The position numbers were made by a program, and so were the translations under genes. Below are positions 4,976 to 41,055 of a DNA stretch of 45,704 nucleotides, piece after piece (positions within the stretch are counted from its first letter, which is position 1; each line of letters starts with the position of its first letter). The stretch is from Candidatus Yanofskyibacteriota bacterium (lineage in GTDB: Bacteria > Patescibacteriota > Minisyncoccia > 2-02-FULL-40-12 > GWA2-44-9): NCBI GenBank assembly GCA_016181045.1, contig JACPAB010000001.1, forward strand, positions 1 to 45,704. Direction: 5' to 3'. The notes under the pieces were generated by a model. That model was not told the DNA's origin, did no database searches, and worked only from the letters and a program-made list of their open reading frames with translations.

Positions 4976-5105
4976 TTCTAATTTCTAAACCCTAATTTCT
5001 AAACAATATCAAATGACCAAATATCAAAATCCAAAACAGTTTAAATATTTGAGATTCGGATTTTGGATTTGTTTAGGATTTAGAGATTAGAGTTTAGAGA
5101 TTTTA
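4976..5105. repeat. Long imperfect inverted repeat, AT-rich (TTTCTAAACCCTAATTTCTAAAC ... GTTTAGGATTTAGAGATTAGAG)
   Basis: Complementary arms on both sides of aaaacagtttaaatatt. Confidence 0.6.
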
Positions 5106-8749: not shown

Positions 8750-8815
8750 TTAGGATTTAGCCATTAGAACTTAGAATAATTTCTAATAACTACTGGCTAA
8801 TAACTAATGGCTAAT
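8749..8815. repeat. Intergenic palindromic repeat, copy 2, abutting the rpoC start codon
   Basis: gattaggatttagccattagaacttagaa...ttctaataactactggctaataactaatggctaat directly before tATG. Confidence 0.75.
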
Positions 8816-12793: not shown

Positions 12794-13396
12794 ATGTCAG
12801 ATTTCGATCTCACCTACACCCAGACCGGCGATCTCGGCAACAAAATCGGCGGACAGGAAGGTGCCAAAGGCATTCTCTCCGGTGAGCTCGTTGTGGTGAA
12901 GAGAAGCGAGGCCAACCGCCGCTGGATCAAGATTGACGAGAACACCATCGCGGTGGACCTTGAGTCCAGCCCCGGCCTGCCCTTCGCCGGCGCCCAGGTC
13001 GAGAAGCATATCGGTGTTGGCGGCGCGATCTTCCAGAAGCAGGCCGACGGTCTGTATCGAAACGGCCGCAAGGTGGGTCTCCACCTCTCCGGGCGTCAGA
13101 AGGGCGGCAAGGTCGTGAAGGGCTATGAGCTCCGCGACGAGCTCACCGGCAAGCCGGTGCTCAACGCGAATGAGCTCGACGCCCTCTACGACAACCCCCA
13201 TCTCCTCCCCGAGGAATGGAAGCGGGACGAGAACGGCAACATCCGCTTCATCTTCTTCTGGGGGACGATCTACCGCAACTCGGACGGCGGCCTGTACGTC
13301 CGGTACATCTACTTCGACGGCGGGTCGTGGGACCGGGTCTTCAGCTGGCTCGACCGCGGCTGGCGTGGCAACGACCCGGCGGCGCTCGCAAGTTAA
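12794..13396 (+). CDS. DGR target (variable) protein
   Basis: 200 aa ORF with SD and strong promoter; C-terminal VR (NSDGGLYVRYIYFDGGSWDRVFSWLDRGWRGNDPAALA) is an A-substituted version of the TR; GGSW motif. Confidence 0.93.
   Translation: MSDFDLTYTQTGDLGNKIGGQEGAKGILSGELVVVKRSEANRRWIKIDENTIAVDLESSPGLPFAGAQVEKHIGVGGAIFQKQADGLYRNGRKVGLHLSGRQKGGKVVKGYELRDELTGKPVLNANELDALYDNPHLLPEEWKRDENGNIRFIFFWGTIYRNSDGGLYVRYIYFDGGSWDRVFSWLDRGWRGNDPAALAS
13272..13391 (+). repeat. DGR variable repeat (VR)
   Basis: 120 bp ungapped alignment to TR 13765..13884; 15 differences fall on TR adenines, plus one G/C difference near the 3' end. Confidence 0.96.
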
Positions 13397-13764: not shown

Positions 13765-13884
13765 ACCGCAACTCGAACGGCAACCTGTACGTCCGGTACA
13801 TCTACTTCAACGGCGGGTCGTGGAACCGGAACTACAACTGGCTCGACAACGACTGGAATGGCAACAACCCGGCGGCGGTCGCAA
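13765..13884 (+). repeat. DGR template repeat (TR)
   Basis: AAC-rich template; see VR. Confidence 0.96.
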
Positions 13885-13894
13885 ATCTCTTACG

Positions 13895-13922
13895 TTCTCT
13901 CCCTACTTATCGGGAGAGTTTT
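13895..13922. other. Hairpin downstream of TR that also contains the avd stop codon
   Basis: CTCTCCC-TACTTATC-GGGAGAG-TTTT. Confidence 0.65.
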
Positions 13923-14250
13923 GTTTCTGAAGCTGACCGCTCCAGCCCCCGATCATTTTCCCTATCTCGTTAATCTTAGTCGATAGAGCTATATATTTCT
14001 TGCTGTCGAGCGACTTTGTCTCCCAAAGGATCATGAGGAGTATCCGCAGCACATCCAGTTTCCGAATAGCTACATTAACGTAGGGCAGTTTGTCGTGTCG
14101 AGGCAGAAAGCTTGCGGTTGCGACTGCTTCTATGATTTCGATAAAATAATTATCGATCCGCTGCCCAAGCGAGTGTTTGTGGGTTTTGGGTATGGTCTGA
14201 TAGTATTCATACCAAACCAAATAAGCGCTTTTGGTCTTTTGTAAAAGCGG
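13903..14250 (-). CDS. avd: DGR accessory variability determinant (Avd-like), N-terminus out of frame with an ATG
   Basis: Frame reads LPLLQKTKSAYLVWYEYYQTIPKTHKHSLGQRIDNYFIEIIEAVATA...LRILLMILWETKSL...INEIGKMIGGWSGQ, Avd-like. The ORF track start at 14220 is TTG and lacks LPLLQKTKSAY. Confidence 0.85.
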   Translation of the reverse strand, partial: PLLQKTKSAYLVWYEYYQTIPKTHKHSLGQRIDNYFIEIIEAVATASFLPRHDKLPYVNVAIRKLDVLRILLMILWETKSLDSKKYIALSTKINEIGKMIGGWSGQLQKQNSPDK

Positions 14251-14261
14251 AAGTGAAGGTT

Positions 14262-14273
14262 GGGGGGGGGGGG
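14262..14273. repeat. G12 homopolymer between divergent avd and RT
   Basis: ggttGGGGGGGGGGGGcgtaac. Confidence 0.9.
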
Positions 14274-14285
14274 CGTAACTGGTGT

Positions 14286-15263
14286 ATGAAAATCAGGTTT
14301 ACTCATAGTTACGAAAGCGTTATATCTTTGGAAAATCTCCTCGAAGCGTGGAAAGAGTTTATCATCGGGAAGAGGTCTCGTAAAGATGTCCAAGAATTCG
14401 AGTTAAATCTGATGGGCAACATCATAGATCTTCATGAAGACCTTACTGCGAAAACCTACTCACACTCCGCCTATGAACCTTTCAATATTTCTGACCCAAA
14501 ACCGCGCAGAATCCACAAATCATTGGTCCGGGACCGGTTGCTCCACCATGCCATTTATCGGCAACTTTATCCATTTTTCGATAAGACATTCATTGCCGAT
14601 TCGTATTCATGCCAGATTAATAAAGGGACACATAAGGCCTTGAATCAATTTCGAGAATTTGGGCATATCGCTTCCAAAAATCACACCAAAACCGTCTGGG
14701 TTCTGAAATGCGATATCCGAAAGTTCTTTGCCAGTATTGACCACGCGGTGCTTTTGGAAATTTTAAGAACGCATATCGATGACGACGACATCATTTGGCT
14801 GCTTGAGAGGATTGTCGGTAGTTTTAACAGCGGCAAACCGAGGACTGGCTTGCCGCTCGGTAATCTTACTTCGCAGCTATTGGTTAACATATACATGAAT
14901 GAGTTTGACCAATTTATGAAGCATCGGATGAAAATTAGATACTATATCCGTTACGCGGATGACTTTGTGGTCTTGTCTCAAGATAAAGCATGGCTCGAAG
15001 AGTTGTTGCCGAAAATTGCTGACTTTCTTTCGGAGCGGCTCAAACTGGACCCGCATCCTGACAAGATCTCAATCCGCACTCTTTCTTCGGGTATCGATTT
15101 TTTGGGCTGGGTTCATTTTCCGGACCATAGGGTTTTGAGGACTGTAACAAAAAGAAGAATGATGAAAAGAATTAAAGAAAACCCCAGACCAGAGGTGATG
15201 AATTCTTATCTTGGTTTACTGAAGCATGGGAATACACAAAAGTTAAGAAAAAGATTGATTTGA
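14286..15263 (+). CDS. DGR-type reverse transcriptase
   Basis: RT motifs incl. YIRYADDF and GLPLGNLTSQLLVNIY (DGR-type GxxxSQ). ORF can also start at GTG 14253, upstream of and reading through the G12 tract. Confidence 0.95.
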   Translation: MKIRFTHSYESVISLENLLEAWKEFIIGKRSRKDVQEFELNLMGNIIDLHEDLTAKTYSHSAYEPFNISDPKPRRIHKSLVRDRLLHHAIYRQLYPFFDKTFIADSYSCQINKGTHKALNQFREFGHIASKNHTKTVWVLKCDIRKFFASIDHAVLLEILRTHIDDDDIIWLLERIVGSFNSGKPRTGLPLGNLTSQLLVNIYMNEFDQFMKHRMKIRYYIRYADDFVVLSQDKAWLEELLPKIADFLSERLKLDPHPDKISIRTLSSGIDFLGWVHFPDHRVLRTVTKRRMMKRIKENPRPEVMNSYLGLLKHGNTQKLRKRLI

Positions 15264-32828: not shown

Positions 32829-32905
32829 CTATAACTAACGACTAACGACTAACGACTAACAACGAGAAATTAAACTGTTGTAAGTTGTTTGTTGTAAGTT
32901 GTGGG

Positions 32906-33588: not shown

Positions 33589-35046
33589 TCAATATTGACC
33601 AAGAGACCTCCGGTGGAGGCGGCGGTAATAAGTGATGGCGAAACGGTGGGCTTCGGCGTCGATGCTTTTAATAAGATTACGGACATTTTGCGGGAGCTTT
33701 GACATCGAGACGGGTTTTTCCAGGGTGGTCGAGAATATCTCATATTTACCTTTAGCCAAAGCAATGATTGGGATTTGAGATTTAGGATTTTTGATTTGTT
33801 TGCTCGGAGAAGGTTCACGGTGCTTTAGCCCGGGAATCTCTGTAGGATTTAGAAATTTGGATTTAGAAATTGCCGCTCTAGCGGCGTTGAGCTGGCCTTT
33901 GCCGCCGTCTATGAGTATCAAGTCCGGGAATGACCACTCGTCATGTTTGAGACGGCGCTCCAAGACCTCCCGGAGCATTCCGGTATCTCCGCTTGGAATC
34001 TGATTTATACTACGATCGTGAAATAAAGCAGATCTTGTTTTTGTAATTCTCGCTCTTATTTTAAACTTGCGGTAGAGGTTCTTGTCCGGCCGACCGCTGA
34101 TGAACGTGACCATGGCGCCTGTGGCATTTGTGCCCTGGATATTGGAAACGTCGTAGCCCTCTATGCGATATGGTACGCGGTCTAATTTTAATAGGCGGGC
34201 TAATGCTTTTAGGGTGTTTTGTGCTCTGACGTCGTTTTCAGTATTAAGTATACCGTATTTAGTATTACGAATAATTTTAGCGTTTTCGAAAACTCTCTTT
34301 AGTTTCTCTATTTTGTCGCGCAATTCTATTGCTTCCTGAAATTTTTCTTCTTTCCCGAGTTTTATCATTTCTTTTTCCAGGTTTTTCACTAGAGAGGTTT
34401 TCTTTCCCGACAAGATTTTCTTAATCGCTTTGATGCCATCTTTATATATTACACCATAATACGATCGTGGTGAGGTGTAAGATGGTGGCATGAGTGCTTT
34501 TGGTTCATTGTCTTTTAAGCAACAAACGCCGAGGCACTTTCCTATATGATAGTTCAAGCAGAAGTTGTTGTGCGGATTTTTACAGGTGCAATAGGGGAAT
34601 ATTTTTCTTAGGAATTTTAATGTTGATTTAAGAACGGCTCCGTCAGTAAACGGGCCAACAGAATCGGATATTTCAATATTTAAATATTTAAATATGCGTG
34701 GTTGATGAGTGAGAAAAATTTTAGGAAATTTTTCGTGAGTGAAAACCACGTAGAAGTATTGTTTGTCGTCCCGCATTACGATATTGAATCTTGGCTGCAG
34801 GTTCTTTATTAGTTGAGATTCGAGTATCAACGCTTCGATGTCGGATTCAGTGACCCTGAATTCCAGACTGTTCGCGGTCGAGACCATTTTTTGTATCCTT
34901 GGGTCCGTTGTTTTTAAATACGAACGCAGGCGCGCTTTTAAGTTTGCCGCTTTTCCTATGTATATTTTCTTGCCTTCTTCTTTGAACATATAAATTCCGG
35001 GGGAAGAAGGCGATCCGGAAATAATTTTTGCCAAGAGGTCGCTTGT
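33589..35046 (-). CDS. uvrC: Excinuclease ABC subunit C, lacking a recognisable C-terminal HhH
   Basis: GSPSSPGIYMFKEEGKKIYIGKAANLKARLRSYL; IEGYDVSNIQGTNATGAMVTF; DLILIDGGKGQLNAA. Confidence 0.93.
   Translation of the reverse strand, partial: TSDLLAKIISGSPSSPGIYMFKEEGKKIYIGKAANLKARLRSYLKTTDPRIQKMVSTANSLEFRVTESDIEALILESQLIKNLQPRFNIVMRDDKQYFYVVFTHEKFPKIFLTHQPRIFKYLNIEISDSVGPFTDGAVLKSTLKFLRKIFPYCTCKNPHNNFCLNYHIGKCLGVCCLKDNEPKALMPPSYTSPRSYYGVIYKDGIKAIKKILSGKKTSLVKNLEKEMIKLGKEEKFQEAIELRDKIEKLKRVFENAKIIRNTKYGILNTENDVRAQNTLKALARLLKLDRVPYRIEGYDVSNIQGTNATGAMVTFISGRPDKNLYRKFKIRARITKTRSALFHDRSINQIPSGDTGMLREVLERRLKHDEWSFPDLILIDGGKGQLNAARAAISKSKFLNPTEIPGLKHREPSPSKQIKNPKSQIPIIALAKGKYEIFSTTLEKPVSMSKLPQNVRNLIKSIDAEAHRFAITYYRRLHRRSLGQY
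33772..33872. repeat. AT-rich inverted-repeat element in frame in uvrC
   Basis: ggatttgagatttaggatttttgatttg ... ggatttagaaatttggatttagaaatt; similar motifs to the 4976..5105 repeat; encodes SKFLNPTEIPGLKHREPSPSKQIKNPKSQIP. Confidence 0.5.
33998..34033. repeat. 36 bp palindrome, family C, in frame in uvrC
   Basis: ATCTGATTTATActACGATCGTgaaATAAAGCAGAT; cf. ychF copy. Confidence 0.85.
34449..34480. repeat. 32 bp palindrome with ACGATCGT core, in frame in uvrC
   Basis: TTACACCataatACGATCGTggtgAGGTGTAA. Confidence 0.75.
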
Positions 35047-40932: not shown

Positions 40933-41055
40933 TTTACCATTTGCCAATTACCATTTGCCAATTATTTACCATTTAATCATTGCGTCATTTTCTGAAAATG
41001 GATAAATGAAACGATGATAAATTAATGGAAATTGGAAAATGATAACTGGTAAATT
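40932..41055. repeat. Long imperfect inverted repeat in the groES-groEL gap
   Basis: AATTTACCATTTGCCAATTACCATT ... AATGGAAATTGGAAAATGATAACTGGTAAATT. Confidence 0.65.

Follow-up and report, generated by a model that had tools for sequence, protein, structure and literature searches.

A simple repeat at the 5' end of avd as a candidate phase-variation switch of diversity-generating retroelements in Patescibacteria

What might a run of 12 guanines do between two divergent genes of a diversity-generating retroelement (DGR)? The question is raised by a 45,704-nt stretch of DNA from a Candidatus Yanofskyibacteriota bacterium (contig JACPAB010000001.1; this whole stretch is referred to as the window), in which a complete DGR is flanked by rpoC and an ftsK-like gene (Table 1). 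The element is identified as a DGR by the adenine differences between its template repeat (TR) and variable repeat (VR), its DGR-type reverse transcriptase (RT) and its accessory protein of the Avd family. Of the 17 differences between VR and TR, 16 fall on adenines of TR (which has 33 A), and TR has no copy in the genome other than VR. The RT matched Pfam RVT_1, with GLPLGNLTSQ and YADD readable in its sequence, and the avd core matched Pfam PF22296 (bAvd; 5e-14) above the cut-off and NCBIfam DivGenRetAVD at 78.4 bits, just under the cut-off of 80. The target gene had no match in Pfam or NCBIfam. A terminator-like hairpin (plus strand, 13897-13918) directly follows TR, overlapping the avd stop, and may mark the end of the TR RNA ahead of the region that comprises the avd antisense and the RT.

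Table 1. Features of the DGR and of its homopolymer, with positions in the window.
Feature	Position	Strand	Remarks
DGR target gene	12794..13396	+	200 aa; VR at C terminus
VR (variable repeat)	13272..13393	+	
TR (template repeat)	13765..13886	+	
avd core reading frame (bAvd)	13903..14261	-	open back to tract; no ATG of its own; stop at 13903
G12/C12 homopolymer	14262..14273	.	inside avd N-terminal coding region; at present length avd ATG out of frame (OFF)
avd 5' coding segment MSKPDFHTPVT	14274..14306	-	start ATG 14306-14304; overlaps RT 5' end on the other strand
DGR-type reverse transcriptase	14286..15263	+	LPLGNLTSQ, YADD; ATG start 3' of tract

The preliminary description of this DNA had placed a G12 homopolymer between avd, on the minus strand, and the divergent RT gene, on the plus strand, and this arrangement is real. 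The tract is the sole G12 of the 457-kb assembly, and the window contains no further runs of G8 or longer. As had also been stated, the avd frame lacks an ATG and stays open when followed back across the C tract, and the hand arithmetic by which tracts of 10 or 13 G would join an upstream ATG frame to avd is right; the allele in the window is OFF. That ATG-initiated frame exists, starting 11 codons ahead of the tract with the reverse complement of the His-7 codon (CAT) of the RT, but the 'MDIFTRPL' start given for it, at 14393, is a TTG. A GTG-started RT reading through the tract, likewise suggested, could exist (14253), but an ATG start is available to the RT without it, as it is to the RTs of most repeat-bearing relatives (see below).

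The RT was used to search related genomes, and the stretches fetched yielded 226 distinct loci, 203 of which had an avd divergent from the RT. In 169 of these 203 divergent Patescibacteria loci, a simple repeat was present within a 165-nt zone at the 5' end of avd (167 if two doubtful 8-mers are removed). Homopolymers of C7 to C14 accounted for 139 of the 169, the others being dinucleotides (22; CT, CA, GA or TC), tetranucleotides (5), a 7-mer array (1) and the doubtful 8-mers (2), which were rejected as noise (L274 and L280), two-copy 8-mers being common outside this zone. The units were thus of non-triplet size (1, 2, 4 and 7), and none of the 169 had a unit of 3, 6 or 9. Control stretches of equal size in the bodies of RT and avd contained 0 and 2 repeats, respectively, and all other sequence of the loci contained 58 repeats in 510 kb (0.019 per 165 nt), half of them chance 8-mers. 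The enrichment at the avd 5' end is therefore about 45-fold as counted and about 90-fold without the 8-mers, so that the placement of the repeat is far beyond chance. The repeat was found in the same family, order and class as the window's genome, and its range extends to other classes within the phylum, whereas the 12 fetched DGRs with avd and RT on the same strand had no such repeat at avd, except for one T7. In the 45 nearest genomes, 24 of the 44 tracts of G10 or longer lay at the DGR avd/RT junction (hand count).

Tract length is not fixed among the relatives, and the repeat itself turns over quickly while the sequence around it changes slowly. Within a cluster of loci about 82-92% identical to one another, the same position is occupied by (AACC)10, (CAAT)7, (CAAC)11, C9 or a degenerate tract, and similar loci have (CAGC)6 or the 7-mer array (GCCAGCC)6 there. 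Phase differs between near relatives, with (CT)8 OFF in L155 and (CT)6 ON in L156 (92% identity), and between the paralogues of one genome, with C10 ON in L005 and C9 OFF in L134. On the RT tree, the minimum number of changes was 33 for repeat class, 24 for ON/OFF state and 57 for phase. A second source supplied 31 duplicate copies of loci, which had an identical tract and are probably the same assemblies; a search of viral contigs for contigs of the same population with other tract lengths returned only the known contig.

The reading frames around the repeat follow a common logic. The avd frame was open through the repeat in all 169 loci, and in 168 an ATG frame ran from the RT side into the repeat without a stop. 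Phase was scored in the 142 repeat-bearing loci with a single ATG frame; 27 were ON (in frame) and 115 OFF, a proportion of ON below one third (P=2e-4). The metagenome consensus of a long G run may be in error by one or more units. The preliminary description had considered that homologues lacking the tract might start Avd downstream of it; instead, 30 of the 34 loci without a repeat have an in-frame ATG upstream of the core. Read on the opposite strand, the avd ATG is a His codon of the RT; this codon is CAT in 122 loci and CAC in 1, compared with 1033 CAT and 790 CAC in the other His columns of the same RTs (P=1e-27; all P values given here assume independent loci, which these are not fully). 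As the preference for CAT is meaningless for the RT and yet creates the avd start, it provides strong evidence that this ATG is in use. Upstream of the ATG, codon choice is also biased towards a TATNAT-like motif at -13 (36 loci, 18.7 expected), with no such preference at -18, and a promoter scan around the window tract gave nothing above chance; a leaderless avd promoter is only hinted at. Counting against a switch, TTG codons 3' of the tract (e.g. 14220) could serve as starts of a shortened Avd.

Where both members of a pair of avd genes are OFF, dN/dS is still about 0.1, indicative of purifying selection, and avd must therefore be expressed often enough to be kept. Such repeats should also be unstable in these bacteria. 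Without MutS, slippage errors should go uncorrected, and MutS was not found in 57 of the 58 related genomes, including that of the window, as against its presence in 11 of 14 control genomes; instability should therefore be favoured.

The relationship between the repeat and the RT divides the loci into two forms. In 111 of the 169 loci, including the window, an ATG start for the RT lies 3' of the repeat, which would then gate avd alone, and 15 more loci have a GTG or TTG there. In the remaining 43, no ATG, GTG or TTG start is left on the RT side of the repeat; the RT frame crosses it to an upstream ATG, so that both frames cross the repeat, on opposite strands. The RTs of this form have recurrent N-terminal peptides (e.g. 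MNQR, MPxFV..NRQ and MRNNIHPNQISLFDS), and a comparable, uninterrupted RT extension is present in three loci without a repeat (L112, L267 and L276). In the loci of this form with a unique frame, the shift that restores the RT restores avd as well, in 23 of 23 cases (P=1e-11). A chance origin of this coordination was tested with the loci that have their own RT start, and in these the phases agree in only 16 of 36. This two-gene arrangement was noticed during the analysis and had not been predicted beforehand. It is likely that in these loci one repeat acts as a two-way switch, the same phase restoring RT and avd, and that slippage toggles the whole hypermutation machine as a unit; if so, this form would be a phase-variable mutator aimed at one gene. 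Peptides resembling MRNNIHPNQISLFDS occur in L151, L156, L158, L164, L246 and L253 (CT repeats), L170 (C10) and L235 (TC), in an antisense, codon-aligned overlap with avd, two proteins being read from both strands of the same DNA.

Taken with the frames and the repeats of the relatives, these features make it very probable that the tract is a translational phase-variation switch, or contingency locus, built into avd, which would gate DGR mutagenesis by slipped-strand changes. The preliminary description had proposed the tract as a candidate phase-variable switch, and the comparison supports this suggestion on sequence grounds and extends it far beyond the window. Translation of Avd would start at the ATG antisense within the first RT codons, and the ribosome would read 11 codons, cross the repeat and enter the conserved Avd domain. 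Replication slippage, which we infer to occur within populations, would alter the number of repeats, one length in three placing the ATG in frame with the Avd domain (ON) and the others leading to an early frameshift (OFF). Each cell lineage would thereby switch hypermutation of its target gene on or off at random. In the 43-locus form, the repeat would lie in the overlapping starts of avd and RT, with one phase restoring both. Both cDNA synthesis and retrohoming depend on Avd in the DGRs that have been studied. In the reconstituted BPP-1 DGR, inactivation of avd lowers diversification (repair) to about 1e-9 (PMC12875486), and the tract should therefore turn target hypermutation on and off if Avd acts in the same way here; by analogy with this Bordetella phage, Avd is probably essential for the DGRs described here. 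The excess of OFF alleles suggests that mutagenesis is usually silent.

Other roles for the repeat can be set against these data. Slippage of the polymerase or the ribosome on the C run could operate on the RNA, yielding a fixed, low fraction of in-frame Avd at any tract length. Most loci have homopolymers of 9-11, on which polymerase slippage is plausible, and most are out of frame, yet their avd is under purifying selection. However, di-, tetra- and heptanucleotide repeats, on which such slippage is not readily expected but slippage of the DNA is, stand in for the homopolymer in close relatives, and loci without a repeat are simply in frame. Slippage on the RNA is therefore disfavoured as the sole cause, and we consider this explanation improbable.

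Even less probable is a role of the G run as a cis element for expression of the RT (through a Shine-Dalgarno-like sequence, promoter spacing or RNA structure), the start of avd then being at another site. In the window, 12 bases separate the run from the RT ATG, and the repeat is no more than 25 bases from the RT N terminus in many loci, but the same place is occupied in relatives by CT, CA, AACC and CAGC repeats, at widely varying spacing, and both the antisense ATG (CAT 122:1) and the frame logic pertain to avd. The Shine-Dalgarno-like element that the preliminary description had envisaged for the RT is thus rejected. The least credible of these alternatives, which we judge very improbable, is neutral growth of a repeat in an unconstrained gene end in bacteria that lack mismatch repair, with avd dying or starting downstream. 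The failure to find MutS in 57 of 58 genomes and the poorly conserved N termini would fit such growth, whereas the lack of triplet units, the strong enrichment over the flanks, the low dN/dS of OFF genes, the selected avd ATG and the coordinated frames of the 43-locus form all argue against it.

A switch of this kind would join two known systems. Like the poly-G and tetranucleotide loci of SSR phase variation in Neisseria, Haemophilus and Campylobacter, the window feature has a non-triplet repeat of variable length in the first codons of a gene, with in-frame and out-of-frame alleles (ON and OFF) and an intact downstream frame. Unlike these contingency loci, which control surface or modification genes, the gene switched here is a component of targeted mutagenesis, and the repeat is common to overlapping divergent genes, one form restoring both by the same phase. 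The DGR resembles that of Bordetella phage BPP-1 and its phage relatives in its RT, TR, VR at the target C terminus, Avd and adenine-directed changes, but in the BPP-1 layout avd precedes TR and RT on one strand, and here it is divergent. The loci probably belong to the Patescibacteria-restricted DGR clade 2 of Roux et al. (2021, PMC8144416), with which they have their cellular nature and their phylum in common.

The main text of that study mentions neither Avd nor homopolymers, and does not decide whether control of RT activity underlies the slower turnover seen in the targets of cellular DGRs (PMC8144416); in the paper on the reconstituted BPP-1 system, its authors describe the natural control of DGR activity as a frontier (PMC12875486). 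Among open-access full texts, a scope outside which the two main DGR surveys fall, we found no DGR paper reporting repeat-controlled avd or RT. Both components are of known kinds, and their union, together with the use of one repeat by two divergent genes, appears to be new. If the switch is true, it would be heritable, random and reversible, and a lineage could vary a binding protein in bursts, retaining a favourable variant afterwards. A span of about 1 kb holds both the tract phase and VR, which can be read from ordinary metagenome reads, so that the link between them is testable in existing data.

Several repeats were observed away from the avd/RT junction. The window contains a 7-mer array (ACTAACG x3.9; 32834-32860) and two-copy repeats of period 14 (4978-5004, 8783-8815, 33845-33871 and 40934-40964). 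The remaining tracts of G10 or longer in the 45 nearest genomes lie in mixed places and may include further phase-variable genes; one genome (G088) by itself gave dozens of G10 matches. Other long G/C runs, up to C15, lie away from DGR RTs in mixed contexts (L194-L213), and further phase-variable genes are possible among them in these bacteria. In L204, a C13 (1163-1175) follows closely after an RT of 47% identity, in a same-strand ORF, and this different cassette layout may carry the switch too.
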